Origin: Hyphococcus flavus
Lineage (GTDB): Bacteria; Pseudomonadota; Alphaproteobacteria; Caulobacterales; Parvularculaceae
Length of the DNA stretch: 64,000 bases
Assembly: GCF_028748065.1 (NCBI RefSeq)
Contig: NZ_CP118166.1
Span: forward strand, 3,177,501-3,241,500
Direction: 5' to 3'
Each line of letters opens with the position of its first letter. The stretch's first letter is position 1. The position numbers and the translations under genes were made by a program. Of this stretch, positions 1 through 16,448 are shown one piece after another. The notes beneath the pieces were generated by a model that worked only from the letters and a program-made list of their open reading frames with translations, made no database searches and had not been told where the DNA came from.

Positions 1-1082
1 GCCTTCGTACTGGGCTTAACATCCCTGAGGGCCGCTGTGGCTCATGTCACTTCGAACATAATGGCGAGACAGGCGTTCTGCCATCGGACTCTCAGCTTTG
101 CGTCGATTGTCATGCCGAAATGGATCAGCGTTTTGCAGAAACGGACCTCGTAAACGTTTCCAACTTTGGCCGGCGTCACCCGGAATTCAAACCACTGATC
201 GTTTTAGATCCGCAGGCGGATGACGGCGCTATGAAACGCGTTTCCCTGGTCGATAGACCGAAAGAAAACAACGGGCTCGAATTTCCGCATGATTTTCACC
301 TGAGCGATGATGAAGTCATCCGAAAGCTTGAAACCTTGCCGGCGAACTTACGCATGCGCTACGGCGATGAACTTGATTGCGTTGACTGTCATACAATCGA
401 TGCCGCTGGCGCTTATGTGGAACCCATAGAAATGGAAACCCACTGCAGCGATTGTCACTCACTCGCCTTCGCCACCAGTGACGATACCGTTCGTAATCTA
501 CCCCATGGAGAACCCGAGGAAGTACGTGAAACGCTGCAGGATTTTTATCTGGCGCAGGCGACGCAATTGCTGCTTGGCGATCAGCCCTCTGGCGTTCTCG
601 AGCGCCAACTCAGTTCTGAAGCGCGTTCACGCCGCGAACGTCTCCGCGCGCAGGCGTTTGCCAACGCCGAGCGTAACACCGACGCAATGATCCAGAGAAT
701 ATTCTCAGAAGAAGGCGTCTGCACGAAGTGTCACGAGAATGAAGACCCGGCTGCGCGCGCTGCGGTTGCAAGTAGCGACTTGCCGGAATTCACACCAGTG
801 CGGCTGACGAACCGATATCACCCCATGGCGGATTTCAACCATGCCGCGCATGAAACCGGCGAAATCAACTGCTCGACCTGCCATAAAGCGGAAACATCCT
901 CGGAATCCGCTGATGTTTTAATGCCCTCGATCACCGTTTGTCGGGCTTGTCATGACGATACAAGCGGCCGGACAGGTATCGCTTCGGATTGCTTAACCTG
1001 CCATGCTTACCATGATGACGACCTGAAAGCGCCGATAATGCAGCCGGCGCGTCTTCAGCGTGACGCCATGAGAACGCCGTAA
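1..1082 (+). CDS. Multihaem c-type cytochrome, 5'-truncated (at least 8 haems)
   Basis: The reading frame is open from base 3 and enters from the left edge, so the start and any signal peptide lie outside the window; an ATG at 120 is internal. Eight CXXCH haem sites are visible: CGSCH and CVDCH before base 120, then CVDCH, CSDCH, CTKCH, CSTCH, CRACH and CLTCH. The stretch around FNHAAH followed by CSTCH and then CRACH has the spacing of cytochrome c3/c7-like multihaem proteins. Haem attachment implies a periplasmic or extracellular location. The stop overlaps the next start by one base (TAATG), so the two cytochromes are probably translationally coupled. Electron transfer is certain in kind; partners and direction are inferred from the cluster. 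Confidence 0.9.
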   Translation, partial: LRTGLNIPEGRCGSCHFEHNGETGVLPSDSQLCVDCHAEMDQRFAETDLVNVSNFGRRHPEFKPLIVLDPQADDGAMKRVSLVDRPKENNGLEFPHDFHLSDDEVIRKLETLPANLRMRYGDELDCVDCHTIDAAGAYVEPIEMETHCSDCHSLAFATSDDTVRNLPHGEPEEVRETLQDFYLAQATQLLLGDQPSGVLERQLSSEARSRRERLRAQAFANAERNTDAMIQRIFSEEGVCTKCHENEDPAARAAVASSDLPEFTPVRLTNRYHPMADFNHAAHETGEINCSTCHKAETSSESADVLMPSITVCRACHDDTSGRTGIASDCLTCHAYHDDDLKAPIMQPARLQRDAMRTP

Positions 1083-2419
1083 TGAGTTATATTCGTTTCA
1101 TAGTCCCGATAGTGACAGCACTGTTCGCGCTTTCGACTGCTCACGCGCAAAACTCGCCAGTGCCGTTCGTTGACGGCCTCAGCCACACTGGCGTGCCGAG
1201 TTGTTCTACCGCAGGCTGCCATGGCGATCAGGTCACGGGCGACGGCGTCGGGCCTGTGGTAGGCCAGAACGAATATTTCCATTGGGCTTCGCGCGGGGAA
1301 AAAGGCGCGCATTCACGCGCCTATGAAGTCCTGCTGGAACCTCACGGCAAACGCATCGCCGCCAATCTTGGCATTGGCCCTGCTCATCAGTCTCCCATTT
1401 GTCTTGATTGCCATGCGGACAATGTACCGGACGACAAACGCTCGCAGCGTTTTCAGATCAGCGATGGCGTCGGTTGCGAAGCTTGTCATGGCGGCGCGCA
1501 GAACTGGCTGGCGTTTCACCGTATTGGCGCAGGTCATCAACAGAACATCGAAGCCGGACTTTATCCCACCGAAGAGCCTGTCGCCCGCGCTAAACTCTGT
1601 ATGGGGTGTCACCTTGGGTCGAGCTACGAAAATCAGTTCGTCTCGCACCGGCTGATGGGCGCCGGCCATCCGCGCATGAAATTCGAACTTGATCTTTACA
1701 CCACCATTCAAAAACATCACGTCGTCGACGACGATTATCGTGAGCGCAAAACCGTGGCGCCGGGCGCGCAGGTCTGGGCTATCGGTCAGGCCATGGGGCT
1801 TGAGCGTACGCTGGAACTCTTGCTCGATAACGATACCGGCTCAGCGGGCGTATTTCCTGAGCTCGTCTTTTTCGATTGCCATTCCTGCCACCAGCCGATT
1901 TCCGAAGGCGTCGGTCAGTTAAGCTGGCGCGCGAACCCCGGTCGTGCGCTCGGTCCGGGATCGCCAATTCTGAACGACGCCAATCTCATCATGTTGCAAG
2001 CCGCCATGCGGGTGATCGATCCGGAACTTGCCGACCAGCTTGAAAGCGAGGGACGTGTCCTGCATGCGGCGTCTCAGCATTCTGGTGGATATTTTCATAA
2101 TGCGGCTGAAACTTTGAAGAATACAACCAGCATGGCCGTTGCTCGAATCAAAGGCGCCGACCTTTCAAACCCGTCGACCGTGCGCGCAATCCTTTTGGAA
2201 GTTGTCAGTGATCAACGCACGCGTCGCTACACGAATTACGCCGGCGCAGAACAGGCGCTTTTCGCCGTACAGCGCCTGACGGCGGCGCTTGGCATGGCGA
2301 GCCCGGAAATGAAAGCTGCCGTCGAACGAGCTGGGAAAGAGGCACAAGGCCCTTATTCGTACAACCAGAATGGGTTTCGGTCGGCGCTAAGTGATATTCG
2401 CGCCATGATAGCGAATTAA
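1082..2419 (+). CDS. Multihaem cytochrome c, cytochrome c554-like (5 haem sites)
   Basis: A 445-residue exported cytochrome with an N-terminal signal peptide ending in a TAHAQ-type cleavage region near residue 23. Haem sites are CSTAGCH (a CX4CH site, about residue 40), then CLDCH, CEACH, CMGCH and CHSCH. Several histidines outside the motifs (for example in RLMGAGHPRM and KHHV) could be distal ligands. The pattern resembles the cytochrome c554/c-prime type of multihaem protein. After the last haem site about 170 residues carry no haem motif and look helical. The ATG overlaps the stop of the preceding cytochrome gene, which fixes the start. Probably a periplasmic electron carrier of the conduit encoded here; its redox partner cannot be read from sequence. 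Confidence 0.88.
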   Translation: MSYIRFIVPIVTALFALSTAHAQNSPVPFVDGLSHTGVPSCSTAGCHGDQVTGDGVGPVVGQNEYFHWASRGEKGAHSRAYEVLLEPHGKRIAANLGIGPAHQSPICLDCHADNVPDDKRSQRFQISDGVGCEACHGGAQNWLAFHRIGAGHQQNIEAGLYPTEEPVARAKLCMGCHLGSSYENQFVSHRLMGAGHPRMKFELDLYTTIQKHHVVDDDYRERKTVAPGAQVWAIGQAMGLERTLELLLDNDTGSAGVFPELVFFDCHSCHQPISEGVGQLSWRANPGRALGPGSPILNDANLIMLQAAMRVIDPELADQLESEGRVLHAASQHSGGYFHNAAETLKNTTSMAVARIKGADLSNPSTVRAILLEVVSDQRTRRYTNYAGAEQALFAVQRLTAALGMASPEMKAAVERAGKEAQGPYSYNQNGFRSALSDIRAMIAN

Positions 2420-2504: not shown

Positions 2505-4010
2505 ATGTTTTGGCGTAAGAAAAAAGACGGAGTTCGCTTAGAGCCGTCGGGGGAAAAACCCGCGCCGCTGTTCAAGGCGCAACAGGACATGAGCGAGACA
2601 CTGGCGCGTTCAGCCTCTCAGCCGAAAGCCAAATACGCCGCTGGCATCGCCGGCGGCGGCAATGTGGTGCGTGAGATCGATCACTTCATGCAGGGTGTCG
2701 TCAATCGCAATCCCCATGAAACGGAATTTCATCAGGCGGTGTTCGAATTCGTCGAAACGGTGATGCCGTATTATCTCGATCACCGGAAATATATGGACGC
2801 GCGCATCCTAGAGCGCATGACCGAGCCCGATCGTATCGTCAGCTTCCGCGTCACATGGGAGGACGATCAGGGCGTGCCGCACGCCAACAAGGGCTTTCGT
2901 GTCCAGTTCAACTCTTCCATGGGCCCCTACAAAGGCGGCCTGCGTTTCGACCCGAGCGTCAACGCTTCCATTCTGAAATTCCTTGGCTTTGAACAGACAT
3001 TCAAAAACGCGCTGACGCGTCTTCCCATGGGCGGCGGCAAGGGCGGCGCGAATTTCAACCCCAAAGGCCGTTCAGATGCGGAGATCATGCGTTTCTGTCA
3101 TTCGATGATGACGGAACTGCACCGACATATAGGCGAAAGCGTTGACGTCCCGGCCGGCGACATTGGCGTCGGCGCGCGCGAGATCGGTTATCTTTTCGGC
3201 AAATACAAACAGCTTGCGCATTTCTACACGGGCGGCGTCATTACCGGCAAAGGCATTCCTTACGGCGGCAGTGAAATCCGCAAGGAAGCAACCGGCTACG
3301 GCGTTGTCGTCTTCACTGAAGAAATGCTGAAGAAACACGGTAAGACCATGAATGGCAAGACCGTCGCCATTTCCGGTTCGGGCAATGTGGCGATCTATGC
3401 CGTGCAGCGCGCCATGCGCATGGGCGCCAAAGTCGTCACCGTGTCCGACAGCCGCGGCTTCGCTCACGTCCCGAACGGCTTCACTGATGAAAGTTTCGCC
3501 GTTCTTCAGGACGTGAAGGAAAACCGCCGCGAGTCTCTCGCCAAATTCGCGAGCGAGGCGCGCGGTGCCACCTATCATGCGGGCAAGTCGCCATGGACAG
3601 TGCCGTGCGATGTGGGCCTTCCCTGCGCAACGCAGAACGAAATCGACGAACAGATGGCCGCGACCATGGTCAAGAACGGGATCATGTGCCTTTCCGAAGG
3701 CGCGAACATGCCACTGACCGCACAGGCCATTCACGTCCTCAAGGACGCTGACGTGATTTTCGGCCCCGCCAAAGCGGCGAATGCCGGCGGCGTCGGCTGT
3801 TCCGGCCTGGAGCAAGCGCAAAACGCCCAGCGCCTGAGCTGGACCCGCGACCAGGTAGAGCAGGAATTGGAGCGAATCATGCGCTCTATTCACGAGCAAT
3901 GCGTTGAATACGCGCCGGTCAGGAGCGGCATTGTCGATTATCAGACGGGCGCCAACGTATCGAGCTTTGCCCGGGTGGCCGACGCAATGCTCGCTTTTGG
4001 TTATATCTAA
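2505..4010 (+). CDS. gdhA: NADP-specific glutamate dehydrogenase
   Basis: Catalyses reductive amination of 2-oxoglutarate to glutamate in the cytoplasm. It is recognised by the hexameric GdhA signature: PMGGGKGGANF with the catalytic lysine region near residue 175, VPAGDIGVGAREIGY near 215, the Rossmann SGSGNVA near 290, ALPCATQNE-like and GKAANAGGV-like segments, and a terminal VADAMLAFGYI. I chose the ATG at 2505, preceded by GGAG about 9 bases upstream, rather than an in-frame TTG at 2472. This gives 501 residues, about 50 longer than E. coli GdhA because of a lysine-rich, poorly conserved N-terminal extension. It sits between multihaem cytochrome genes with an 85-base gap upstream, so it probably has its own promoter. 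Its link to the cytochromes may be only positional. Confidence 0.96.
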   Translation: MFWRKKKDGVRLEPSGEKPAPLFKAQQDMSETLARSASQPKAKYAAGIAGGGNVVREIDHFMQGVVNRNPHETEFHQAVFEFVETVMPYYLDHRKYMDARILERMTEPDRIVSFRVTWEDDQGVPHANKGFRVQFNSSMGPYKGGLRFDPSVNASILKFLGFEQTFKNALTRLPMGGGKGGANFNPKGRSDAEIMRFCHSMMTELHRHIGESVDVPAGDIGVGAREIGYLFGKYKQLAHFYTGGVITGKGIPYGGSEIRKEATGYGVVVFTEEMLKKHGKTMNGKTVAISGSGNVAIYAVQRAMRMGAKVVTVSDSRGFAHVPNGFTDESFAVLQDVKENRRESLAKFASEARGATYHAGKSPWTVPCDVGLPCATQNEIDEQMAATMVKNGIMCLSEGANMPLTAQAIHVLKDADVIFGPAKAANAGGVGCSGLEQAQNAQRLSWTRDQVEQELERIMRSIHEQCVEYAPVRSGIVDYQTGANVSSFARVADAMLAFGYI

Positions 4011-4050: not shown

Positions 4051-6069
4051 ATGCCGGCGGCGAAAAAACTTTTATTCGCAGCAGCATCCATGCTGGCGCT
4101 TGCCGCATGCGGCGGGAGCGAGTCGACACAGCCGCCGCCAGTGACGACGCCAACAACGCCGGACCCGCCCGCAACATCGCCTCTGTTCAAACCTGAATTG
4201 CGGATGTTGACGGCCTCAGATGTTGAGACTGTCGTTGCGCAAGCGGTATCGGAGGCTGGCGCGCGCGGAGCGCCCGCAACCATCGCTATCGTTGACCGGG
4301 TCGGCAATGTGCTCGCTATCTTCCAAATGAACGGCGCGGCGCCGACAACCTTTGTTCGTGAAGGACCTGCCGGCACGCCGAACACGTCCCTTCAAGGCGT
4401 CGAGGTTCCCTCAACACTTGCGGCTATCTCCAAAGCCATCACCGGCGCTTATCTTTCTTCCGGCGGCAACGCGTTCTCGACACGCACCGCCAGCCAGATC
4501 GTTCAGGAACATTTCCCGCCGGCCCCGACGACCGTCGGTCTTGAAAGCGGGCCGCTCTTCGGCGTGCAGTTCTCGCAGCTTCCCTGCTCGGACCTCAACA
4601 CCCGCGCCATCGGCGGCGGGCCGACCATCGGGCCACAACGCGCACCGCTTGGCCTCGCCGCCGACCCTGGCGGATTTCCTCTCTATAAGGATGGATTTGT
4701 TGTAGGCGGCATCGGTATCATTACCGATGACGATTACGGGTTCGACCCAAATATTCTCGACGTCGATGACAGTGATGAGGAGGCCATCGCCTGGGCCGGA
4801 ACATCCGGCTTTGCAGCGCCAGCAACTATTCGCGCCAACCGCATCTCCGTCGACGGCACGACCTTACGCTTTTCCGACACAACGGACGCCGACCTGATGA
4901 GCAATCCCGGCGCTGCGCCGTCATTTGCGTCCATTGCCGGCGGCGTTCAGGGCGATCTGATCGATGTCACCTCCTATTTCGACGGCGCTTCAGGCGGCGG
5001 CGTTTACGCCGGCGTTTCTTATGGGGCCGAAGGGTCCGGCATCCGCGAAGCGACGCCTGCGGAATATTCGAATTCCGATATTTTCGTCTTAACCGATGGC
5101 GCTGGGACCAACCGTTATCCGGCTACAGGCGGAACAGACGGGGCAAGTGTCGCCTCTCCGCTCACCGCCGCCGAGGTTACGGTTCTTCTTGAAGAAGCGT
5201 TCGACATTATGACTCGCGCGCGCGGCCAGATCAGACAGCCGCTGAATTCGCGCGCGCAGGTTTCAATTTCAATCGTAGATACCAATGGACAAATTCTGGG
5301 TATCGTGCGTGGACCCGATGCGCCGATTTTCGGCACGGACGTTTCCTTACAGAAAGCGCGTACGGCGGCGTTTTTCACGAACGAAATCGCGGCGTCAGAC
5401 TTAACGGGAACGCCTGGCCCATCCATCGCCGGTTTCAACACGACAAAGTCTGTCGCCAGCTATCTACAGGACGTACGTGATTTCATTCCTGACCCAACAG
5501 CACTGACAGGAACATTTGCCTTCGCTGACCGGTCCGGCGGCAATATCTCCCGCCCCTATTTTCCGGACGGCGAGGTTGGAACCGCAAATGGACCACTTTC
5601 GTTGCCGATCACTGAATGGAATATTTTCGCAACCGGTCTGCAGACCTCACTTGTTGTGGATAACATTCTTGAACACGTCGTACATGTGGTCACGAGCGGT
5701 GGGAGTAGCGACACGGCGCCCGCGTGTTCGGCTCTTCCGGATATACCAACGCTCGGCGGCACACAGAACCGTCTGCAAAACGGCATACAGATTTTTCCCG
5801 GCTCGGTGCCAATTTATCGCGGCGACATCCTTGTCGGCGGCATTGGCGTTTCAGGCGACGGCATCGATCAGGACGACATGATTTCTTTCCTTGGCGTCCA
5901 CAATGCGGCCGAAAGGCTTGGCGGCGCCATCAATAACGCGCCAGAAGCGATCCGCGCGGACCAGATCGTCATTTCTGTCAATGGCGCTCCGGTGCGTTTG
6001 CGCTACATCAACTGTCCGTTCAATCCGTTTGTCGGCTCCGACGAACAGAATGTGTGTCAGGGGAAATAG
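4051..6069 (+). CDS. Lipoprotein with two GlcG/HbpS-like (haem-degrading) domains
   Basis: A 672-residue protein starting at ATG 4051 behind GGGAGAG. The N-terminus is a lipoprotein signal with lipobox LAAC near residues 16-19, followed by a Pro/Thr-rich linker, so it is predicted to be anchored in a membrane. Two diverged copies of the GlcG/HbpS (PF03928-type) fold follow. The first runs from about residue 52 (LTASDVETVV, then AIVDRVGNVLA, then AISKAITGAY) and the second from about residue 370 (LTAAEVTVLL, then SIVDTNGQILG, then LQKARTAAFF). Each copy ends in a glycine-rich VGGIG strand. Family members bind haem or small ligands; here haem handling at a cytochrome complex is an inference. 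The stop directly abuts the next ATG (TAG|ATG), which argues for co-production with the barrel protein. Confidence 0.82.
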   Translation: MPAAKKLLFAAASMLALAACGGSESTQPPPVTTPTTPDPPATSPLFKPELRMLTASDVETVVAQAVSEAGARGAPATIAIVDRVGNVLAIFQMNGAAPTTFVREGPAGTPNTSLQGVEVPSTLAAISKAITGAYLSSGGNAFSTRTASQIVQEHFPPAPTTVGLESGPLFGVQFSQLPCSDLNTRAIGGGPTIGPQRAPLGLAADPGGFPLYKDGFVVGGIGIITDDDYGFDPNILDVDDSDEEAIAWAGTSGFAAPATIRANRISVDGTTLRFSDTTDADLMSNPGAAPSFASIAGGVQGDLIDVTSYFDGASGGGVYAGVSYGAEGSGIREATPAEYSNSDIFVLTDGAGTNRYPATGGTDGASVASPLTAAEVTVLLEEAFDIMTRARGQIRQPLNSRAQVSISIVDTNGQILGIVRGPDAPIFGTDVSLQKARTAAFFTNEIAASDLTGTPGPSIAGFNTTKSVASYLQDVRDFIPDPTALTGTFAFADRSGGNISRPYFPDGEVGTANGPLSLPITEWNIFATGLQTSLVVDNILEHVVHVVTSGGSSDTAPACSALPDIPTLGGTQNRLQNGIQIFPGSVPIYRGDILVGGIGVSGDGIDQDDMISFLGVHNAAERLGGAINNAPEAIRADQIVISVNGAPVRLRYINCPFNPFVGSDEQNVCQGK

Positions 6070-7797
6070 ATGATCCGTAGCGCGATCATATCTCTTGTAC
6101 TTGGCGCTGTTACAGCGCCAGCGTTCGCGCAGGATGAACCGCTGAACCCCAGCGCCGTGGCGCCGCCAACGCTCGGCGAATACCCTGATTGCCGCGACCA
6201 GGGTCGCGAATTTACGGAATGCGCGCCCGCCGTACCCGATCGCTGGCGCCTCGCGGAAAACTTAGGGCTTCTCGAAACGAAATGGTGGGATCCTTATAAT
6301 CAGAACACAATCAAAGGCGACCGGCCGGTATTCGGCGATGACTGGTTCTTCGTCGGGGCAGTTGTTTCCGACACGGTGGTCGAGCCGCGTTCATTCCCGC
6401 TGCCTGTAGGCATTCAAACCACAACCGATCCGGGCGATCTCGACGTCTTCGGCGATAGCGACAGTTTCGGGTTCAACCAGAACCTCATCGTCAGCCTTTC
6501 TCTTATCAAGGGCTCAACGGCCTATAAGCCGCAGGACCTCGAATTCCGCCTCACGCCGGTTTTCAACTACAACTTTGCGCGGGTCGAAGAAAAACGCATT
6601 CTCTACGTCGAGCCGTCCGAAAAACTTACCCGTCACGACGGGTTCATCGGCTTGCAGGAAGCATTTGTCGACTATCATATCCGCAACGTATCAGAGCGTT
6701 ATGACTTCGACTCCGTACGTGTCGGCATTCAGCCGTTCTCATCCGATTTCCGCGGATTTCTGTTTCAGGACAACCAGCTTGGCGTTCGCCTGTTCGGCAA
6801 TCGCGACAACAATCGCTTTCAATATAATCTCGCAGCGTTTATGCGACTTGAGAAAGACACGAACTCAGGCCTCAACGACGTCACCACGCGCCCGCGCGAT
6901 GATTACGTATTTCTTGCAAACCTTTACCGGCAGGATCTGCCCTTTCCTGGTCTCACCAGTCAGATCACAGCCGTTTACAACCTCAACCGCGAACAGAACG
7001 ACATAGAGATCGACAAGAACGGTTTTCCGGTTCGCCCCGCCCTGCTCGGCAATCTTCGCGGACGCGACTATGACGTTGCCTATCTTGGATACAACGCCGA
7101 CGGACGCATCGGTCGCATTAATCTAACGGCGTCGGCCTATTACGCGCTCGGCGAGGATAGAAACAGCATCTTCACAGATGAAAAAGCCAAAATAAGATCG
7201 TTCTTCGCCGCCATTGAACCATCTTACGATCGCGGCTGGGGGCGTGTGCGGTTGTCCGGCCTTTTCGCCAGCGGCGACGGCAACCCTTATGACAACGTCG
7301 AACGCGGTTTCGATGCGATATTTGAAAACCCGCAATTCGCCGGCGCCGACACCAGTTACTGGATTCGTCAGGGCGTGCAGTTCCTTGGCGGCGGGCGTGT
7401 CATTGGCATAAACGGCCGCAACGGCGTCTTGCCTGACCTGCGATCAACCAAGGAACAGGGCCAGTCGAACTTCAACAATCCGGGGCTGATTCTCGCCGGT
7501 GCTGGCGCAGACTTTGACATTTTACCGGAGCTTCGTGTTTCCGTAAATCTAAACCGGCTCTGGTTCCACAAGACGGACACGCTGGAAGCGTTGCGCGTTC
7601 AAGGCGCTATCGACAATGACATCGGCTGGGATGCCTCTAGCGCCATCATCTATCGCCCGGACTTTATTCAGAACGTGGTCTTCCGTTTGTCTGGCGCAAC
7701 GCTGAAGCCCGGCGATGGTTTCAAACAGCTTTTCGATAATGATGAGAAGCGCGACCTTTATTATTCGGTCCTCTTTAACGTGGTGTTGACCTACTGA
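6070..7797 (+). CDS. Outer-membrane beta-barrel protein
   Basis: A 575-residue exported protein with a signal peptide ending PAFAQ near residue 21. The rest is rich in alternating aromatic and polar strands separated by Asp/Asn/Gly turns, with many Arg and Tyr residues. It ends YYSVLFNVVLTY, an aromatic terminal beta-strand typical of outer-membrane proteins. Overall it resembles alginate-export/porin-like barrels, but I do not recognise a specific family. It starts immediately after the lipoprotein stop, and its TGA overlaps the ATG of the decahaem cytochrome (TGATG), so the three proteins are very likely made together. A barrel coupled to multihaem cytochromes suggests a pore or sleeve for trans-outer-membrane electron transfer; this is inference. 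Confidence 0.8.
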   Translation: MIRSAIISLVLGAVTAPAFAQDEPLNPSAVAPPTLGEYPDCRDQGREFTECAPAVPDRWRLAENLGLLETKWWDPYNQNTIKGDRPVFGDDWFFVGAVVSDTVVEPRSFPLPVGIQTTTDPGDLDVFGDSDSFGFNQNLIVSLSLIKGSTAYKPQDLEFRLTPVFNYNFARVEEKRILYVEPSEKLTRHDGFIGLQEAFVDYHIRNVSERYDFDSVRVGIQPFSSDFRGFLFQDNQLGVRLFGNRDNNRFQYNLAAFMRLEKDTNSGLNDVTTRPRDDYVFLANLYRQDLPFPGLTSQITAVYNLNREQNDIEIDKNGFPVRPALLGNLRGRDYDVAYLGYNADGRIGRINLTASAYYALGEDRNSIFTDEKAKIRSFFAAIEPSYDRGWGRVRLSGLFASGDGNPYDNVERGFDAIFENPQFAGADTSYWIRQGVQFLGGGRVIGINGRNGVLPDLRSTKEQGQSNFNNPGLILAGAGADFDILPELRVSVNLNRLWFHKTDTLEALRVQGAIDNDIGWDASSAIIYRPDFIQNVVFRLSGATLKPGDGFKQLFDNDEKRDLYYSVLFNVVLTY

Positions 7798-10700
7798 TGC
7801 GCGCGCTCGTGAACATAACCGCTCGCACAGCAGCCGCAATTGCCCTGCTTTTTGGCGTCTCATTCGCGGCGGATGAAGAAAAGCCGGTTGAGCGCGATTA
7901 CTCCCTTGTCCGCGCGGAGCCGACACCGGTTTATCAAACGCAAGATCAGGTTGACGCAAAAAGCGACGGCTGCCTTACCTGTCATACGGCGACGGACGCG
8001 CCGACCATGCACAGTCCGACGGCGGACTTGCGCATTGGCTGTGTTGATTGCCACGGCGGCAACGCCTCGGTTTTTGCGCGGGGCCTCAGCGATGGCACTG
8101 CTGCCTATGATGAGGCCCGCGACAACGCCCACGTCCTGCCGAAATATCCTGAAAGCTGGCACTTCCCACATTCGGCGAACCCTAAACATTCCTATGCGTT
8201 ACTGAATAAAGAGTCGCCGGAGTTCGTTCGTTTCGTAAACCCTTCTGACTACCGCGTGGCGCGTGAAGCCTGCGGCAGTTGCCACATGAGGGAAATTCTA
8301 GCGGCCGAGCGTTCGCTGATGGCTACAGGCGCCATGTTGTGGGGCGGCGCGGCCTATAACAACGGCATATTGCCATTCAAAAACTACGTTCTCGGCGAGT
8401 CCTATACCCGCGATGGCGAACCGGCGACAATCTGTTCACCCGGAGAACCGGTCGAAGACGGTCCCATGGGTTGCCCGACTGAGCCGTCAGAAGCAGCGCA
8501 GGCACGCGGCGCCCTGCCTTTCCTTGCGCCATTGCCAACCTGGCATGTTATTCCGCCTGCAGATGTTTTCCGTGTCTTCGAGCGCGGCGGGCGCAATATT
8601 TTAACGCAGTTTGCAGAGGTCGGCCTGCCGAACGCCCTCGGTCAGTTACAGCGGCTGGAGGAACCGGGCCGCCCGGATATCCGCCAGTCGAACCGAGGCC
8701 CTGGCACTGGCCTTCGCGTCGCTATACCCGTCCTCAACATTCACAAGACGCGCCTCAATGATCCGTTCACCTGGTTCCTCGGCACCAATGACAATCCGGG
8801 CGATTACCGCTCTTCCGGCTGCGCATCCTGTCATGTGATTTACGCGAACGACCGCGAGCCGCGCCACGCCCTTACATATACGCAATATGGCCGCGACGGC
8901 GAGACGATCACCGCCGACCCGACCATCCCGAAAAACGAGCCGGGCCATCCGCTGCAGCATACGTTCACGCGCGCGATCCCGACGTCGCAATGCATGATCT
9001 GTCACATGCACCAGCCGAACATGTTCCTGAACACCTATCTCGGCTACACCATGTGGGATTATGAATCCGACGCGCCGTTCATGTGGCCGAAGGAACAGAA
9101 ATACCCGACCATGGAAGAGCAGCGAAAAGTGCTCGACCGCAACCCGGAAGGCGCGGCGGTGCGCGGCAAATGGGCGAAGCTCGACTTCCTACGCGATGTT
9201 TACGACCTCAATCCTGAACTCAACGACACGCAATTCGCCGACTATCACGGTCACGGCTGGAATTTCCGTGCGATTTTAAAACGCGACCGCGACGGCAACC
9301 TTCTCGATGCTGACGGTAATATTGTTCCTAACGACGATCCTGAGAAATGGCGCAAGGACGATGAAGGCAAATTCGTCGAGGTGGGAACGAACCCCGGCAA
9401 GTCCGTGCACATGATGTCGATCCATGCCGAGGTCGGGATGCAATGCGCAGACTGCCATTATTCACAAGACAATCACGGCAGCGGCTATATCCATGGCGAG
9501 GTCGCGAATGCGGTTGAAATCCGCTGCAAGGATTGTCATGGCACAGTCGATGAATACCCGTCGCTGAAAACCACCGGTCCCGCCGCCGGCCCGAACGGCC
9601 GCGACCTCGCGATCCTCAAAAATCCGGACGGACGCAATCGTTTCGAATGGATGACGCGCAGCGGACGCGACGTGCTTGTACAGCGCTCGATTATCGACCC
9701 CGAACTCGAATGGGAGGTATCGCTCGTCAAGGACAGCGTAACGCCGGGCGCGCCAAGCTATAACGCCAAATCGGCGCGTGCGAAAACCATGTCTATGAGT
9801 GATGATGGCTCGCTCAATTGGGGGGCGCGTTCTGACAAGTCAAATCTCGCGCATAAAGATGAGGAGATGGAGTGCTATACATGCCACCTTTCCTGGACCA
9901 CGTCATGCGGCGGTTGCCATTTGCCCATAGAAGCGAACTGGCAGGCCGAGTCGCATAAATATGAGGGCGGCACGACGCGTAATTACGCGACCTATAATCC
10001 GCAGGTTGCGCGCGACCAGATGTTCCAGCTCGGCAAGCACCAGGATACGAAAAACAATTCCGTCGCGCCGGTGCGTTCCTCCTCGGCGCTGGTGTTGTCA
10101 TCTACCAACGTCAATCGCGAGCGCATCTATGTGCAGCAGCCGCCGATTTCTTCCGCCGGGTTTTCCAGCCAGGCGTTCGCGCCGCACTTCCCGCATACAG
10201 TGAGGAAGACCGAAACCAAAACCTGCAGTGATTGTCATCTGTCGGCCGACAACGACAACAATGCCATCATGGCGCAGCTCATGCTGCTTGGCACCAACTT
10301 CGTCAACTTTGTCGGCTTGCATGCTTACACCGGCCTCGATGGCGCCGTTGAGGCGGTGCGCGTTACCGAATGGGACGAGCCGCAGGCGGTGTTTGGCTCT
10401 TATCTCCAGAAATACGCTTATCCCGATTACTACAAGGCCCACGTCGAAAAGAATGGCCGGGAGCTGAAAAACTGGACGCGCGGCGACACGTTCGGCGACG
10501 GCCTTTCCGGAGAGACTGGCGCGCTCGAAGAAATCGCCAATGTGGTTCAAAATACAGGCGGCGCGGTAAACTGCCTGCAACTACGCGGGGAATATTTGTT
10601 CGTGGCCGAGGGCAAGGGCGGCTTCCGCGCCTATGACGTTGCCTCCATCGCCAATAAAGGCCTATCCGAACGCTTCCTCACGGCGCCGTTTTCGCCGCTC

Positions 10701-11708
10701 GGTCATGACACTCATGTCCAGTCGAAAAACGCGACCTGCATGGCGTTGCCGACGAACCAGCCGATCGCGCCGGACCGCAATACCGAAGACATGCGGGCCA
10801 TGAACGACGAACAGCCGTTCCACCCGATTTATAACTACGCAGTCGTCACCGATGCTGAAGAAGGCCTGATCCTCGTTAACGTCAATACATTGGCCGATGG
10901 CGAACCACGCAACAATTTCTTCAAGCGCGCCCTCACCTGGAACGAAGGCGGTGTATTAAACGGCGCGCGGCATATCACGCTCGGCGGCTATTATGCTTAT
11001 GTCACGACTGATGCGGGCCTTGCGGTTATCAATCTCAACGATCCGCTCAATCCGCGAACGGAAACCGTTATTTCCATGAACGACGCACGCGCCAGCGCGT
11101 TGCAGTTCCGCTATCTCTTCGTCACCGACGCTGGAGGCTTCAAAGTATTTGACGTCACCGACCTCGCTTCACCGAAACTGGTTGAGAGTGCGAACGTGCC
11201 GTTAGCAGACGCGCAAAAGATTTATGTGGCCCGTACATACGCCTATGTGGCGGCGAAATCCGAAGGCCTTGTCATAATCGACGTTGAAAATCCTGAGGCG
11301 CCCGCCGTCTATCAGAAATTCACCGGCGGCGGCGCCCTAAACGATGCACGCGACATAATTGTCGGCACCACGAATGCTTCACTGTTCGCCTATGTTGCGG
11401 ATGGTCGAAACGGGTTAAAGGTTCTGCAACTGACGAGCCCCTCATCTCAGCCAAATTTTTACGGGTTTTCTCCTGAGCCAAAGCCGGAAATCATCGCCTG
11501 GCGCAAAACCGCCAAACCGGCGCTTGCGCTTTCCAAAGGCATCGACCGCGACCGCGCTGTCGATGAAACAGGACACCAGATGGCTGTATTCGGCCGTCTC
11601 GGTTCGCGGCCCTTCACAAGACCGGAAATGGAGCGCTTGTTCCTCAAGGAAAATGGCGAGCCTTATTATGTCACTGATGACCTGCACGAGGCGGGCGGTG
11701 AGAATTGA
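7797..11708 (+). CDS. Decahaem cytochrome c with C-terminal LVIVD-type beta-propeller
   Basis: A 1303-residue exported protein; the signal peptide runs to about residue 25 (FGVSFAA). Ten CXXCH sites are visible: CLTCH (about 59), CVDCH (82), CGSCH (158), CASCH (341), CMICH (399), CADCH (550), CKDCH (577), CYTCH (692), CGGCH (704) and CSDCH (810). From about residue 920 to 1220 there are six repeats of the form YLFVAEGKGGFRAYDV, YAYVTTDAGLAVINL, YLFVTDAGGFKVFDV and YAYVAAKSEGLVIIDV, matching LVIVD-type propeller blades. Long haem-free segments between sites suggest extra domains. The gene overlaps the barrel gene by one base. It is probably the outer electron-transfer subunit, with the propeller contacting a surface or partner; substrate unknown. 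Confidence 0.88.
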   Translation: MRALVNITARTAAAIALLFGVSFAADEEKPVERDYSLVRAEPTPVYQTQDQVDAKSDGCLTCHTATDAPTMHSPTADLRIGCVDCHGGNASVFARGLSDGTAAYDEARDNAHVLPKYPESWHFPHSANPKHSYALLNKESPEFVRFVNPSDYRVAREACGSCHMREILAAERSLMATGAMLWGGAAYNNGILPFKNYVLGESYTRDGEPATICSPGEPVEDGPMGCPTEPSEAAQARGALPFLAPLPTWHVIPPADVFRVFERGGRNILTQFAEVGLPNALGQLQRLEEPGRPDIRQSNRGPGTGLRVAIPVLNIHKTRLNDPFTWFLGTNDNPGDYRSSGCASCHVIYANDREPRHALTYTQYGRDGETITADPTIPKNEPGHPLQHTFTRAIPTSQCMICHMHQPNMFLNTYLGYTMWDYESDAPFMWPKEQKYPTMEEQRKVLDRNPEGAAVRGKWAKLDFLRDVYDLNPELNDTQFADYHGHGWNFRAILKRDRDGNLLDADGNIVPNDDPEKWRKDDEGKFVEVGTNPGKSVHMMSIHAEVGMQCADCHYSQDNHGSGYIHGEVANAVEIRCKDCHGTVDEYPSLKTTGPAAGPNGRDLAILKNPDGRNRFEWMTRSGRDVLVQRSIIDPELEWEVSLVKDSVTPGAPSYNAKSARAKTMSMSDDGSLNWGARSDKSNLAHKDEEMECYTCHLSWTTSCGGCHLPIEANWQAESHKYEGGTTRNYATYNPQVARDQMFQLGKHQDTKNNSVAPVRSSSALVLSSTNVNRERIYVQQPPISSAGFSSQAFAPHFPHTVRKTETKTCSDCHLSADNDNNAIMAQLMLLGTNFVNFVGLHAYTGLDGAVEAVRVTEWDEPQAVFGSYLQKYAYPDYYKAHVEKNGRELKNWTRGDTFGDGLSGETGALEEIANVVQNTGGAVNCLQLRGEYLFVAEGKGGFRAYDVASIANKGLSERFLTAPFSPLGHDTHVQSKNATCMALPTNQPIAPDRNTEDMRAMNDEQPFHPIYNYAVVTDAEEGLILVNVNTLADGEPRNNFFKRALTWNEGGVLNGARHITLGGYYAYVTTDAGLAVINLNDPLNPRTETVISMNDARASALQFRYLFVTDAGGFKVFDVTDLASPKLVESANVPLADAQKIYVARTYAYVAAKSEGLVIIDVENPEAPAVYQKFTGGGALNDARDIIVGTTNASLFAYVADGRNGLKVLQLTSPSSQPNFYGFSPEPKPEIIAWRKTAKPALALSKGIDRDRAVDETGHQMAVFGRLGSRPFTRPEMERLFLKENGEPYYVTDDLHEAGGEN

Positions 11709-11860: not shown

Positions 11861-14386
11861 GTGACCGCCATGTGGGGTGTGGTCTTTGGACTGGCGAGCG
11901 TGTTGACGCTCGCCGTGTTGATGCTGCCGGTGGCCCGGCGCAGTAATATTCCTTACACTGTAATTCTGGCGCTGGTGGGCATTGGCCTCGGCTTTGCTGC
12001 GCAACAACTGGGCGTCGGCGCCGGCGATGTCGCCCACGATCCTCATGCAGATCATGGCGGCGGCTCACTTTGGGAGCAGATTGCCCAAGCGATCGGCGGT
12101 CTCTCCATTACTTCCGACGTCATTTTATTTCTTTTCCTGCCAGCACTGGTTTTCGAAAGCGCGCTGTCACTTGATCTCCGTAAACTCATGGCCGACATGC
12201 GCTCGATCCTTTTTCTGGCGATTGTCGGCGTTGTCATCTCGACAGCGATTGTCGGGTTTTCACTTTCCTACCTTTCCGGCATGGCAATTGTGATCTGTCT
12301 GCTTCTGGGGGCCATTGTCTCCGCGACTGACCCTGTGGCTGTCATCGCACTCTTCAAGGATCTGAATGCTCCGAAACGCCTGACCGTCCTTGTTGAGGGC
12401 GAAAGTCTTTTCAACGATGCTACAGCCATTGTCGTTTCGTCGATTTTCATCGCCATGCTGGCGCAGCAAACGAGCCTCAATGTCGCCGCCAGCTTACTTC
12501 AATTCTTCGTTGTGTTCCTTGGCGGTGTTGTGGTCGGCATTGTGGTGGCGCGCCCAGCCGTTTGGATGATGCGCGCCTTCCGGCGCGACACAATGATTAT
12601 TTTGACGCTGACGGTAACGCTGCCGTTCATCGCTTTTGTCGTTGCTGAGCATTTCTTGCATGTATCTGGCGTCATGGCGGTTGTCGCAGCCGGCCTTACA
12701 GTCGGCTCAATCGGACGGCGCCTTATCCCGCCGCAGGTTTTCGAAGAGGTCGAACACGCCTGGCACCAGCTCGGGTTCTGGGCGACCTCTTTGATTTTTA
12801 TTCTTGTCGGCCTCGCGGTGCCGCGCATGCTTGGCGATCATGTTATTGATTATGTCGACGATATTTTGCTTGTCATTGCTGCGGCGACGCTCGCGCGCAT
12901 TTTCATTATCTATGTACTTCTACCTCTGCTCAGCCGTTTCGGCGCCGGGCAACAGGTGAGCCTTGGCTACCGCACCATCATGTTCTGGGGCGGGCTTCGC
13001 GGCGCCGTTTCACTGGCGCTCGCGCTCATCGTTCTTGAAACAGAAGCCATCCCTGAAGAAGGCCGCACCTTTGTTGGCGTTCTTGTTACCAGTTACGTCC
13101 TTTTCACTTTGCTCTTTCAGGCGACAACAATTCAGCTTGTGATGAAAGTTTTCGGACTCGACAAATTATCACCTGCGGATCAGGCAGTGCGCGATCGTTC
13201 CGTCTCAAACGCATTACAATCTGTTTCCGAAGAGCTTGATCGATTCGCCAGTTTTCATGAGGTCGATAAAAGCGAACGTAATGTTGCATTGAAACGCTTT
13301 GAAGACGCCGCGGCTCAGGCGAAAGCTGAAGCCAAGAGCGATCATCTCAGCACCGATGACTGGGTGCGCACGGGGCTTGCGATGGCGCTAGCCCAGGAGC
13401 GCCAGCTTTATTTGCAGCGTTTCGGCGAGGGTTTTACAACGACAAGCCAATTGCAGGAATCGTTAACCCGCCTTGACGATGTGACGGATACGCTGAAATC
13501 CGCTACTGCAAACTGGAAGCAAGCTGCCAACACTGGCGTTGCGTTCCGGTCAAGCTTTCGCAATGCGCTGGATGTTCAACGGAATTTCGGTATTTCGGGA
13601 CCGCTGGCCAAAGTGCTGGCGCGCAGGCTCGGCGTTCTTGAATTCATGCGGCAGGTATTACGTGAACAGCGTGAGCACGGCTTAAGCGAAATCGAAGCGC
13701 TGTTGCCCGAAGCTGCACGCAGCGCATTCCGGGAGCGCATGGATGAGCGCTTCACCATTGTCTCACAAAATGCTGAGGCGTTAGCTTTACAATACCCAGA
13801 TTATGCCGCTGCGCTTCATCGTCGTGATTTAACCTTGGCAGGCTTACGTCTTGAAGAAAAGGCGTATAACCGGTTGTTGGAACAATCTCTTATAGGTCCT
13901 GAAATTCATGGCGATCTGGTTAAACGCCTTGACGGCGCCGGCGCCGCAGAAGGCCGTCTGCCCCCGTTAAAGTTAAAACTCAATCCGGCAGAACTTGTCG
14001 CCAAAGTGCCTTTCTTTGCTGACCTGGGCAAAGGCCGGCAAAAAGGCCTCGCACGGCTTTTAAAAACAAGACTTTTCGTACCAGGCGACGTGATCATCAA
14101 ACGCGGCGAAGTTGGTGATGAAATGTTTTTCATCGCTAATGGCGCCGTTAAAGTTATTTTGCCTGAAAACGAGATCACGCTCGGTACTGGTGACTTTTTC
14201 GGCGAACTTGCGCTGATTACCGATCAGCCGCGCAACGCAGATGTGGAAGCGCTCGGGTTTTCAAGCGTGCTGGCATTGAAGCGCCGTGACTTCAAGGCAT
14301 TCGTCAAACGTTACCCGGATATTCGCGACAAGATCCGCCGAGTTGCGCAGGAACGTGTTGGCAGCGGCGTAGAGATCGACCTTTAG
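11861..14386 (+). CDS. CPA1-family cation/proton antiporter with cyclic-nucleotide-binding domain
   Basis: An 841-residue inner-membrane protein. About 12 hydrophobic segments span residues 1-430. They include the CPA1 motif SATDPVAVIALF near residue 155, VEGESLFNDATAIV just after it, and GGLRGAVSLALAL near 385. They identify a Na+ (or K+)/H+ exchanger. A charged, mostly helical cytoplasmic region follows to about residue 700. Residues 710-830 form a cNMP-binding domain (VPFFADLG, then GDVIIKRGEVGDEMFFI, then GDFFGELALI, then PRNADVEAL). This transporter plus cyclic-nucleotide-binding tail resembles plant SOS1-type exchangers. Start is GTG 11861 or ATG 11870; the two differ by three residues. 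The stop overlaps the convergent ccmI stop by four bases. Confidence 0.92.
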   Translation: MTAMWGVVFGLASVLTLAVLMLPVARRSNIPYTVILALVGIGLGFAAQQLGVGAGDVAHDPHADHGGGSLWEQIAQAIGGLSITSDVILFLFLPALVFESALSLDLRKLMADMRSILFLAIVGVVISTAIVGFSLSYLSGMAIVICLLLGAIVSATDPVAVIALFKDLNAPKRLTVLVEGESLFNDATAIVVSSIFIAMLAQQTSLNVAASLLQFFVVFLGGVVVGIVVARPAVWMMRAFRRDTMIILTLTVTLPFIAFVVAEHFLHVSGVMAVVAAGLTVGSIGRRLIPPQVFEEVEHAWHQLGFWATSLIFILVGLAVPRMLGDHVIDYVDDILLVIAAATLARIFIIYVLLPLLSRFGAGQQVSLGYRTIMFWGGLRGAVSLALALIVLETEAIPEEGRTFVGVLVTSYVLFTLLFQATTIQLVMKVFGLDKLSPADQAVRDRSVSNALQSVSEELDRFASFHEVDKSERNVALKRFEDAAAQAKAEAKSDHLSTDDWVRTGLAMALAQERQLYLQRFGEGFTTTSQLQESLTRLDDVTDTLKSATANWKQAANTGVAFRSSFRNALDVQRNFGISGPLAKVLARRLGVLEFMRQVLREQREHGLSEIEALLPEAARSAFRERMDERFTIVSQNAEALALQYPDYAAALHRRDLTLAGLRLEEKAYNRLLEQSLIGPEIHGDLVKRLDGAGAAEGRLPPLKLKLNPAELVAKVPFFADLGKGRQKGLARLLKTRLFVPGDVIIKRGEVGDEMFFIANGAVKVILPENEITLGTGDFFGELALITDQPRNADVEALGFSSVLALKRRDFKAFVKRYPDIRDKIRRVAQERVGSGVEIDL

Positions 14387-15984
14387 AGTGCATCTATCAT
14401 TTGCCGGACGCCAGCGGCGTCAGGCGATCCTTCCGGCATGGTCGCCAACAGCCGCTCCCAATAACTTTTGGCGCGCGCCGTGTCGCCGCGCTGGCTGGCG
14501 GCGAGTCCCTGAAAGTATAATGCGAACGGATGCTCCGGATTAAGTCTTGAGACCTGATCGATGGCGGCTTGCGTCTCCTGGTCTATCGGTTCGCCGTCTT
14601 CACGTAGGGTCGTTAACAGCGCTTCCGCACGTCCGAGCCGCAAATTTACATCGTCCGGCGCCAGTTCCGCTGCACGCGCATACGCTTCAGCGCTTTCTTG
14701 CATGCGGCCAAGGACGGCGTAAGACCGCGCCAGCATGGTCCAACCCTCAAGATCGTCAGGTTCATTTTCAAGGCGAGCGGCAAGACCGGACACCATTCCC
14801 TCGATCATTGCGGCGCGATCATCTTCGCCCATCTGCGCCGCCGCCTGCATTTGCTCTTGTGTTGGGCCGCGCTGTCCCGTTTGGGTGTTTTCGCCTTCAC
14901 TGGTTAGCCTGCTACGCGCCGCCTCAATCTGTTGCAAGACAAATGGCGCGTTCGCATAACGCTCCGAAGCGCGATCAAGTGTATTTTGCACGTTCGCGTT
15001 ATCGCCTTCAGCCGCATAAGCATCAGCGAGCGCAATCCAGCTTTCATAAGGCGCCTCGCCGCTGGCGATCTGCGCTTCCAGCGTCTCAATCCTGTTTTCC
15101 GTTATTGCTTCATCAAGACCTAGCTCATCCATAGATCGTCCAAGTTCAGCAGCAATAACTTCAATCTGTGAACGAACGATCGGCGCCCATTGAACGCCAG
15201 GCGGCGCATCATTGCTAAGCGCGACAAGCGCGCCGAGCGCTTCTTCCCGTTCACCGCGCTGATAGGCGCCGAGCGCCAGATAAAACCGAGCCCGGGGTTC
15301 GGTGGCGTCGCGTTCAAGCGCGCGCTGCAGCGCCGCCGTTGCTTCTGCGTTGACGACCCCATCATTGGCCATAGTCAAAGACTCGCCCTCGGCTGCATGC
15401 AGATAAGCCTGATCCGGGGCCAGCGCCCTCGCCCGTCCAAACGCCGTAGCAGCTTCGGCAAAACGATCCATGCGCGCATAACTTTCGCCAAGCATCACCC
15501 AGCCGTCGAGATCGTCCGGCTGTTCCGCGAGGCGTTGCTCAAGCTCATTAACAGACTCAGCGAGCGGCCGTGCGTTCGCGCTGGACGGCGCTGTCATTTG
15601 TGAACGTTGCGCGATTTCCAGCGCTTCGGGCGTTGGCTCAGACGACGGATTGCCAAGTAGAACATAAAGCACAATAGCGGCGAGTGGCGCGGCGCCGATG
15701 ATCATGGTGCTTACCTGACGCGCAAAGAAACCTTTATTTTCGTCTTTTGCATCCGCTGCTTTTTCATTAGCGGTCAAAAGCCGACGGCGCGCCTCAGCCT
15801 CCGCTTCTGCGGCTTCTTCGTCACTCAACAGTCCAGCGTTCCGATCTCGCGCCACGTCATCGAGCTGAGCAACCAGGTAATCCTGATCATCCAGACTTTG
15901 AACGCGGACAGTCTTTCTGAAATACGGCTCAATGAGGAGCGCGAGGACCGCAATGGCGATCCCAAAGATCAACACCCAAATCAT
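14383..15984 (-). CDS. ccmI: Cytochrome c biogenesis protein CcmI (TPR)
   Basis: A 533-residue membrane protein of the System I haem-ligation complex, which presents apocytochrome c to CcmF/CcmH. An N-terminal membrane helix (residues 1-20) and a second near residue 100 (IIGAAPLAAIVLYVLLG) enclose a charged cytoplasmic loop. The periplasmic part has at least two sets of tetratricopeptide repeats, seen as repeated LAEQPDDLDGWVMLGESYARMDRFAEAATAFGRA-like units near residues 155-200 and 415-460. It is the last gene of ccmF-ccmG-ccmH-ccmI, all overlapping by four bases, and it converges on the antiporter gene. Its proximity to the multihaem cluster is functionally sensible. Confidence 0.93.
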   Translation of the reverse strand: MIWVLIFGIAIAVLALLIEPYFRKTVRVQSLDDQDYLVAQLDDVARDRNAGLLSDEEAAEAEAEARRRLLTANEKAADAKDENKGFFARQVSTMIIGAAPLAAIVLYVLLGNPSSEPTPEALEIAQRSQMTAPSSANARPLAESVNELEQRLAEQPDDLDGWVMLGESYARMDRFAEAATAFGRARALAPDQAYLHAAEGESLTMANDGVVNAEATAALQRALERDATEPRARFYLALGAYQRGEREEALGALVALSNDAPPGVQWAPIVRSQIEVIAAELGRSMDELGLDEAITENRIETLEAQIASGEAPYESWIALADAYAAEGDNANVQNTLDRASERYANAPFVLQQIEAARSRLTSEGENTQTGQRGPTQEQMQAAAQMGEDDRAAMIEGMVSGLAARLENEPDDLEGWTMLARSYAVLGRMQESAEAYARAAELAPDDVNLRLGRAEALLTTLREDGEPIDQETQAAIDQVSRLNPEHPFALYFQGLAASQRGDTARAKSYWERLLATMPEGSPDAAGVRQMIDAL

Positions 15985-16448
15985 TGGCTGCGCTCATTGA
16001 TTATTCGCTGTAGCTTTTCTTCATCGTCCTCACTCAAGCTCGACGAAGATGACGCGGATGCTTGCTTCATATTCCGTAGATAAAAAAACGCCGCGCCCCC
16101 TGCCAGCATTAAGGCAAGCGCCGGGAAGAACCACAGAACAAGCGTGTTCGCCTGAAACGGCGGCTTCATCAGCACGTAATCGCCATAGCGATCGACCAGA
16201 AACTGCATCGCTTCTTCGTCCGTATCGCCTGCCGTCAAGCGTTCACGAACAAGAATGCGCATGTCTTTCGCCAGTGGGGCGTTTGATTCAGCAATAGACT
16301 GGCTTTGGCAGACAACGCAACGCAACTGTGTTTCGATGGCTTGCGCGCGTTCTTCAAGCTGCGGATCGTCAAGCATCTCATCGGGTTCCGCCGCAAACGC
16401 CACAACCGTCATGAAAATACTGATGAAAGAAATAAAAACAGCCCTCAT
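15981..16448 (-). CDS. ccmH: Cytochrome c maturation protein CcmH
   Basis: A 155-residue periplasmic, membrane-anchored thiol oxidoreductase that keeps the CXXCH cysteines of apocytochromes reduced for haem attachment. The diagnostic LRCVVCQSQSI motif, with the LRCXXC active site, is near residue 42, followed by APLAKDMRILVRERL. A signal helix lies at residues 1-20 and a C-terminal membrane helix near 110-130. ATG 16448 is preferred over an upstream in-frame ATG at 16493, because it gives a clean signal peptide and the usual four-base overlap (ATGA) with ccmG. It overlaps ccmI by four bases. Confidence 0.95.
   Translation of the reverse strand: MRAVFISFISIFMTVVAFAAEPDEMLDDPQLEERAQAIETQLRCVVCQSQSIAESNAPLAKDMRILVRERLTAGDTDEEAMQFLVDRYGDYVLMKPPFQANTLVLWFFPALALMLAGGAAFFYLRNMKQASASSSSSLSEDDEEKLQRIINERSQ

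Follow-up and report, generated by a model that had tools for sequence, protein, structure and literature searches.

We analysed a 64,000-nucleotide stretch of the Hyphococcus flavus genome (hereafter the window) and found that it opens inside an operon, the upstream half of which was recovered from the adjoining DNA of the same genome (L003). The operon carries seven genes that are rather likely to encode a single electron chain, fed by NAD(P)H, tuned by a cyclic nucleotide and delivering electrons to a reductase at the outer membrane. Their order on one strand is Red, IMP, FHA cytochrome, Pent, a glutamate dehydrogenase gene that lies between the two halves of the chain, then Lipo, Barrel and Deca (the last three are called the triplet below). 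In this chain, the cytoplasmic flavoprotein Red would take electrons from NAD(P)H under the tuning of a cyclic nucleotide and pass them from flavin to 4Fe-4S centres, IMP would move them over the inner membrane via two b haems, and the FHA-anchored decahaem cytochrome followed by the pentahaem cytochrome would bridge the periplasm to Deca, which, docked on the 18-stranded Barrel and the GlcG lipoprotein, would be the terminal reductase at the outer membrane. The substrate would most likely be a small or surface-bound oxidant (a metal ion, a metalloid oxyanion or a quinone) and the purpose electron disposal or detoxification rather than mineral respiration. Electron chains that span the envelope are familiar from anaerobes respiring metals and from iron oxidisers, and the present one is related to, and distinct from, the chains of metal-using bacteria.

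The linkage of these genes was examined in 125 loci: 20 came from a search of the order and of plasmids (L016-L035), 25 from searches of the phylum and class (L068-L091, L218) and 80 from named contigs, these being the best 80 of at least 547 barrel relatives confirmed by tblastn in a one-genome-per-species collection. The loci were mostly chosen via the barrel, the 80 named ones by similarity to it. Lipo, Barrel and Deca were all present in 114 of the 125 loci and were collinear on one strand in each of the 114, so that their linkage is not due to chance. Among the 11 remaining loci, nine reach the end of their contig, or nearly so, next to the missing gene, and two (L158, L213) lack Lipo beside the barrel despite having enough flanking DNA. 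Red, IMP and FHA were found together in 91 loci, always on a single strand. A search with a decahaem profile in 398 genomes of the phylum, the window's own included, retrieved Deca in 11 genomes (again with the window's own), and Lipo and Barrel adjoined it in all 11. The original prediction, made from the sequence of the window, had joined these three genes into one candidate conduit and had named unlinked homologues as the finding that would speak against it; the homologues are linked, and the three genes do belong together. The named loci, which are mostly gammaproteobacterial, usually show the order Red-IMP-FHA-Lipo-Barrel-Deca-Pent on a single strand.

Table 1. Genes of the chain, their context and the mixed loci. 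Locations are window positions unless a locus is named.
Feature	Location	Strand	Description
Red	L003:8412-10871	same strand as triplet	FAD/NAD(P)-type flavoprotein oxidoreductase, two cyclic-nucleotide-binding domains, 4Fe-4S sites; 819 aa
IMP	L003:10874-11746	same strand as triplet	di-haem-b-type membrane protein; 290 aa
FHA cytochrome, 3' part	1..1082	+	decahaem cytochrome with a single transmembrane segment; FHA PF00498, Cytochrome_C7 PF14522
Pent	1082..2419	+	pentahaem cytochrome, presumed periplasmic; 4 CxxCH and 1 CxxxxCH
Glutamate dehydrogenase	2505..4010	+	between the chain halves; relative in 11 of 125 loci
Lipo	4051..6069	+	two GlcG/HbpS domains, presumed outer-membrane type; 672 aa, PF03928
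Barrel	6070..7797	+	18-stranded outer-membrane barrel (AlphaFold2 model); 575 aa
Deca	7797..11708	+	decahaem cytochrome with C-terminal LVIVD beta-propeller; 1303 aa, 10 CxxCH
ccmI, ccmH-like, ccmG/dsbE, ccmF	14383..18963	-	cytochrome c maturation genes; supporting context, outside the chain
Mixed locus L126	L126:6428-17519		window-like inner half with PCC4-type 5-haem cytochrome and porin
Mixed locus L127	L127:2347-12472		window-like inner half with PCC4-type 5-haem cytochrome and porin
Mixed locus L128	L128:5396-12731		window-like IMP and FHA only, with PCC4-type 5-haem cytochrome and porin

The three reading frames of the triplet were recovered where the original prediction had placed them (Table 1), and the junctions it described are present in the sequence, with TAG directly followed by ATG at 6067-6072 and TGATG at 7795-7799. 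Lipo is the double GlcG/HbpS lipoprotein it had announced: PF03928 matches three stretches (E 1.6e-24), preceded by a signal which, read by eye, ends in LAAC with GG following. Its relatives in the PDB are EfgA and GlcG-type proteins, and a CxxCH count found no haem motif in it. Deca, likewise recognised beforehand as a 10-haem cytochrome with a propeller, matches LVIVD at E 6.9e-18; 10 CxxCH are kept in 101 of 103 full-length relatives, the other two having 8, and the haem region spans about 75 residues per haem. The FHA gene starts 747 bases before the window, and 8 of the 10 CxxCH of its full 609-aa product fall within it, so that together with Deca and the five sites of Pent (one of them CxxxxCH) the window does carry the at least 23 haem sites first counted.

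Barrel matched no family of Pfam or NCBIfam at E<=0.1. Its AlphaFold2 model (40 rows) is a barrel with 18 strands of at least 9 residues by our own count (mean pLDDT 74.8, pTM 0.75), in agreement with the fold expected for this gene. Among the 50 matches listed, the nearest PDB fold is AlgE (3rbh; E 3.1e-17, TM 0.50 by query and 0.65 by target), and chitoporin and OprD/Occ porins come next, although the identity to AlgE/OprD-type porins is about 12%. The Pfam family Alginate_exp (PF13372) matched 4 of 40 barrels weakly (best E 2.6e-4) and did not match the window's barrel at E<=0.1. Residues 401-472 of Barrel (72 residues), between the long strands 13 and 14, are strongly conserved and are a candidate docking or gating loop. 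For Deca (residues 25-1224, 28-row alignment), the model was confident for the propeller alone, and the 50 Foldseek matches listed are mostly propellers and uninformative on the haem region.

The logic of an outer-membrane barrel with decahaem cytochromes is that of the MtrCAB, PioAB and MtoAB systems, whereas the window's barrel has 18 strands and the entry is a pair of a flavoprotein and a b-type protein. MtrB has 26 strands. It is given 28 transmembrane regions in PMC5566968. For the MtrB/PioB family PF11854, no match was found with Barrel at E<=0.1, with any of 40 barrels, or genome-wide at E<=0.001; given also the 18 strands and the AlgE/OprD-like fold, MtrB-type membership of Barrel was rejected. 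Nor did Deca match the MtrA/DmsE (TIGR03508) or MtrC/OmcA (TIGR03507) models at E<=0.1; with the MtrC domain PF22113 it reached E 0.069. The components had been supposed to lie outside the known families. Other matches to these models stayed below cut-off: the full FHA protein scored 23.9 of 192.2 bits with TIGR03508, its window part 29.6 bits with TIGR03508, 22.3 of 209.3 bits with TIGR03507 and 27.5 of 30 bits with PF22113, and Pent 17 and 15.4 bits. Since the width of Barrel is of the AlgE class, an MtrA-like wire inside it is disfavoured, and on this model of moderate confidence the barrel is probably too narrow for a decahaem wire. The original prediction is supported by the linkage of the genes, the barrel fold of the model and the inner chain that goes with them. 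Its analogy with MtrAB/MtrC is not supported in detail, the barrel being 18-stranded, AlgE/OprD-like and without MtrB/PioB match, Deca having about 75 residues per haem and no lipid anchor visible in its sequence, and the lipoprotein having no haem motif.

The inner half of the chain lies upstream and for the most part outside the window. Red combines Pyr_redox_3 (9.8e-33), two cNMP_binding stretches (4.7e-33) and Fer4_11 (PF13247, 3.3e-10), and the closest model to its N-terminal part is YpdA, with a match below cut-off (8.6e-36). Five of the six Rossmann glycine positions are invariant in 80/80 sequences. The Gly, Glu and Arg of the cyclic-nucleotide pocket are kept in 80, 80 and 80 of 80 Reds in domain A and in 80, 68 and 80 in domain B; the Glu and Arg presumably have the roles known from the phosphate-binding cassette of CRP. 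IMP carries WX3HX13H twice, along with SGFFG; the W and both H of each motif are invariant in 93/93 sequences, and the first residue of SGXXG is S in 89 and T in 4 of the 93. The FHA cytochrome has one hydrophobic segment (144-162) between its FHA and haem parts. Of its 82 full-length relatives, 80 have 10 CxxCH and the remaining two have 7 and 9, and the 4+1 haem pattern of Pent was found in 68/68 full-length relatives.

These parts resemble those of PCC4, one of the putative porin-cytochrome clusters (PCC3 and PCC4) described by He et al. 2017 (PMC5566968), where two WX3HX13H motifs with SGXXG are the signature of the membrane proteins and an Fe-S (pfam13247) redox protein is encoded beside the membrane protein gene. 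Both systems have such a membrane protein, a cNMP/4Fe-4S redox protein, a large decahaem and a small tetra- or pentahaem cytochrome, a porin and a third cytochrome. By hhalign, the FHA-type decahaem cytochrome matched the PCC4 decahaem cytochrome (prob 99.7, E 8.6e-27) and Pent the PCC4 tetrahaem cytochrome (prob 98.7, E 5e-16; a reference set of four rows, one from the mixed locus L128). The PCC4 reference loci were selected by architecture, not via the accessions of PMC5566968. The window's chain differs from PCC4 in that pyridine-nucleotide, cyclic-nucleotide and Fe-S parts are fused in one protein, of which the C-terminal half alone matches the PCC4 loci, in that the middle cytochrome has five haems instead of four, and in its GlcG lipoprotein and decahaem-propeller protein. 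At the outer membrane the likeness ends: Barrel against two PCC4-type porin sets gave prob 1.0 and 1.8%, i.e., no homology detected, whereas the two sets matched each other at prob 100% (E 2.6e-39; the first set holds three porins of the mixed loci L126-L128 and two of the PCC4-like loci L135 and L137), and Deca aligned with the PCC4 5-haem cytochrome over 35 columns around CxxCH only (prob 48%). Altogether, these profile comparisons indicate that the inner half is homologous to PCC4 and that the barrel and the propeller cytochrome are not.

We then compared the occurrence of the two halves. The barrel was present in 18/200 genomes of the order and in 20/289 of the class. Strong IMP matches (E<1e-70, a limit chosen after the search, within the gap that separates 2e-73 from 2e-17) occurred in 27 of the same 289 genomes, all 20 barrel genomes among them, and seven further genomes gave weak matches (E 1e-6 to 1e-17). 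Seven genomes with strong IMP matches have no barrel. In G602 the contig ends inside the lipoprotein gene, and in G778 it is 4.8 kb long; G624 and G809 are taken up below. In G632 and G672, Red, IMP, FHA and Pent of the window's type stand beside a 5-haem cytochrome and a porin of about 535 aa, both of PCC4 type, and in G683 IMP and FHA of the window's type stand beside such a pair, with no Red match in 17 kb (L128). In a tree of 57 IMP rows, 46 of them a subset of the window's type, the four PCC4 rows cluster in one clade (100/99), and all three mixed loci fall on the window's side with 95/77, which is below the 'starred' threshold; long branches are flagged in this tree. Because a window-type inner half occurs beside a PCC4-type pair in G632, G672 and partly G683, and because the IMPs of the mixed loci group with the window's type, the outer end behaves as an exchangeable cassette on a shared inner half. 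Five of the seven weak IMP loci (L132, L133, L134, L135, L137) encode cytochromes with 5 and 10 haems, a porin-like protein and a protein related to Red in its C-terminal half, to which L132-L134 add a 4-haem cytochrome; this is the published PCC4 make-up. The other two are a 4.9-kb contig (L136) and a PCC3-like locus (L131:1-3657), where cytochromes with 13 (contig-cut) and 21 CxxCH lie beside a distant IMP relative.

A more specific form of this proposal, which we hold only tentatively, is that of a cyclic-nucleotide-gated NAD(P)H oxidase spanning two membranes in aerobic bacteria of sea and soil, whose swapped outer end (GlcG-Barrel-Deca or the PCC4 pair) would fit different outside oxidants. 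The cyclic-nucleotide domains would switch the electron outlet on and off and would be fed by neighbouring CHASE2-cyclases where present. Among five neighbouring cyclases scanned, those of L003, L156, L016 and L190 have CHASE2 and a class III cyclase domain, and that of L072 is a cyclase with GAF/PAS. In an alignment of 11 cyclases, the one of the window's genome and eight others share the catalytic-site motifs.

Several observations weigh against the chain or its control as proposed here. A CHASE2-cyclase relative was found beside just 16 of 125 loci, the window's own included (for this and the other counts of cyclases, phosphatases, small FHA proteins and metallophosphoesterases, the 125 loci are L003 and 124 relatives, several of them cut short), and the cyclases of L029 and L030 lack the catalytic residues common to the other nine. 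CHASE2 genes occur in all 24 genomes of the same genus, the window's own included, in one to four copies (four in G000), also away from the locus and in many genomes that have no barrel; the neighbouring cyclase is thus suggestive and no proof of gating. The position of the phosphopeptide-binding serine of FHA domains is not conserved among the FHA cytochrome relatives. Control of the chain by FHA-phosphopeptide binding had been considered because PP2C phosphatases and small FHA proteins sit nearby, and it was set aside with these ligand residues. G624 and G809 (loci L125 and L130) have Red, IMP, FHA and Pent with no outer-membrane module in the 20 kb fetched, the partner of which may lie elsewhere in the genome. 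The lipoprotein is not strictly required by the triplet, given the two loci without it. Finally, the 18-stranded barrel belongs to a class of substrate channels and the signal of Deca seems to be plain Sec, so that both Deca and the end of the chain may lie in the periplasm. The haem region of Deca was not modelled confidently (mean pLDDT 52.5).

These last points lead to the strongest alternative, in which Barrel would admit or export a substrate that Deca reduces in the periplasm, with no electron crossing the outer membrane. Such a periplasmic-reductase model was proposed for ExtI and the ext cytochromes in selenite and tellurite reduction, which the loss of ExtI impairs (PMC5877670). It would suit the channel-class fold of Barrel and the lack of a visible lipid anchor in Deca, and the ExtM model matched 28/28 scanned Decas at E<=0.001 (best 1.1e-23). 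The window's Deca scores only 62.8 bits, whereas the ExtM cut-off is 800 bits, the best stretch being 51 residues, and a dedicated GlcG lipoprotein with a highly conserved barrel and long loop suggests a stable complex rather than a free pore. We consider this alternative possible and rather unlikely. Deca and Barrel are the most conserved members of the chain and appear from their sequences to evolve slower than the cytoplasmic flavoprotein (median identity to the window's proteins 60.9% for Deca, n=67; 55.4% for Barrel, n=80; 45.1% for Red, n=55), a ranking biased toward the barrel since the 80 named loci were picked by it; this fits what is expected of the working end. With the triplet linked, the barrel fold predicted and an inner-membrane and periplasmic chain going with it, electron transfer across the whole envelope is the best reading. 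The chain as proposed is further favoured by the co-occurrence of barrel and IMP, the nearly constant haem counts, the conserved ligand residues of the inner half, its homology to PCC4, the interchangeable outer ends, the CHASE2-cyclases beside some of the loci and the ccm genes beside the window's copy.

As for direction, an inward chain fed by an outside donor (Fe(II), Mn(II) or a cathode) seems distinctly improbable. Its inner half is homologous to PCC4, for which He et al. (PMC5566968) modelled electron uptake, which also weighs against outward flow here. One relative (L150) comes from a Haliea metagenome-assembled genome (MAG) whose isolate name, Biocath, suggests a biocathode. Against uptake stand the pyridine-nucleotide domain of Red and the named hosts, most of which are heterotrophs; moreover, Fe(II) or Mn(II) would have to reduce NAD(P)+ uphill, and no subunit for energy coupling was seen in the locus. 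The same pyridine-nucleotide entry and the same lack of a coupling subunit in the locus are the reasons for which outward flow is proposed. That the chain is merely a diverged member of the PCC4 family, as the same kinds of inner-half parts might suggest, is very improbable and was rejected, since the porin and third-cytochrome comparisons above contradict it for the outer half and four PCC4 loci branch separately in the IMP tree.

Among other known systems, the extHIJKLMNOPQS cluster of Geobacter also combines a lipoprotein, a porin and multihaem cytochromes, and a stretch of Deca matches its ExtM; the lipoprotein is a rhodanese there and GlcG here, the entry is Rieske/cytochrome b there and an NAD(P)H flavoprotein here, and no propeller is mentioned in the parts of PMC5877670 and PMC6148476 drawn on here. 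A likely match comes from the Sterkfontein ghost-rock MAGs (PMC13264449, FEMS Microbiol Ecol, June 2026), where a 'first group' of 11 porin-cytochrome clusters (PCCs) has a decahaem gene of 4-5 kbp (3.9 kbp in the window) adjoining that of a porin with about 20 strands; in 7/11, a ferredoxin-NADP reductase is encoded close by. The large decahaem cytochrome, the porin and the reductase-like gene agree in architecture with the window's chain, whereas lipoprotein, FHA, cyclic-nucleotide and membrane parts are not mentioned in the portion of that article covered here; compared by description rather than by sequence, this first group is probably the same system. Of its 36 PCC-bearing MAGs, the article states that most seem heterotrophic and may export electrons. 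What the original prediction missed is the dedicated inner half, the homology of that half to PCC4, the cyclic-nucleotide domains and this likely match to a published group. In a literature search of partial coverage, no description of the seven-gene make-up or of its cyclic-nucleotide entry was found, and the main text of MHCscan (PMC11475568), as far as covered, does not mention Alphaproteobacteria. A supposed link of the Sphingobium plasmid locus to surface hydrophobicity was dropped, 'cytochrome' having 0 occurrences in the text of PMC10734547 at hand.

The chain is widespread and almost unstudied, with at least 547 barrel relatives and copies on Sphingobium plasmids. Its entry would be pyridine nucleotide instead of quinol, with built-in cyclic-nucleotide-binding domains, and, if electrons are exported, aerobes would own a reductase, extracellular or periplasmic and under regulation, which escapes markers of the MtrABC type. 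The occurrence of different outer ends on a single inner half would also be a natural experiment for judging the contribution of the outer-membrane part. Its distribution is patchy and its conservation high. Of 72,556 plasmid records, 15 match Deca, and 13 of these cover at least 80% of it (12 Sphingobium, 1 Sphingopyxis). The named hosts include Colwellia, Cognaticolwellia, Thalassotalea, Haliea, Parahaliea, Peristeroidobacter, Tahibacter, Limnobacter, Marinobacter, SAR116 and Woeseiaceae; many of the barrel relatives are in ordinary aerobic heterotrophs (Colwellia, Parahaliea, Steroidobacter relatives, SAR116). A haem-copper oxidase was found in the window's genome, which is consistent with the aerobic host first suggested.

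The glutamate dehydrogenase gene, which separates the pentahaem gene from the lipoprotein gene and had been left out of the original prediction, has relatives (>150 bits) in L017, L019-L022, L071, L073, L074, L157, L159 and L196; four of these 11 loci are close relatives of the window, and the relative on the Sphingopyxis plasmid (56% identity) is annotated as NADP-specific gdhA. The enzyme is a recurrent neighbour, probably outside the chain, and may have to do with the NADPH pool on which the chain would draw. On the far side, the ccm genes lie about 2.7 kb past the Deca gene; the ccmI, dsbE and ccmF models were over their cut-offs, the ccmH-like protein matched the NrfF model below its cut-off, and relatives of ccmF, ccmG or ccmH were found in 11 of 125 loci. 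The largest neighbour cluster (38 loci) was dropped, its sequence looking like an antisense shadow open reading frame. In gammaproteobacterial copies, genes for PP2C phosphatases (18 loci) and small FHA-domain proteins (17 loci) mostly come after the pentahaem gene, some 5 kb beyond the barrel on its downstream side (L155, L157, L164, L176, L188 and others). A CHASE2-cyclase, a FecR-domain protein and a TPR protein (L003:1319-7448, minus strand) lie back to back with the operon of the chain; relatives of the FecR-domain protein were found beside 8 loci, and a metallophosphoesterase, annotated as CpdA in one plasmid, lies beside 7. Finally, the gene of an antiporter of the CPA1 type, which has a CRP-like cyclic-nucleotide domain at its C-terminus, directly follows the Deca gene (window positions 11861-14386, plus strand) and has relatives in L019-L022.

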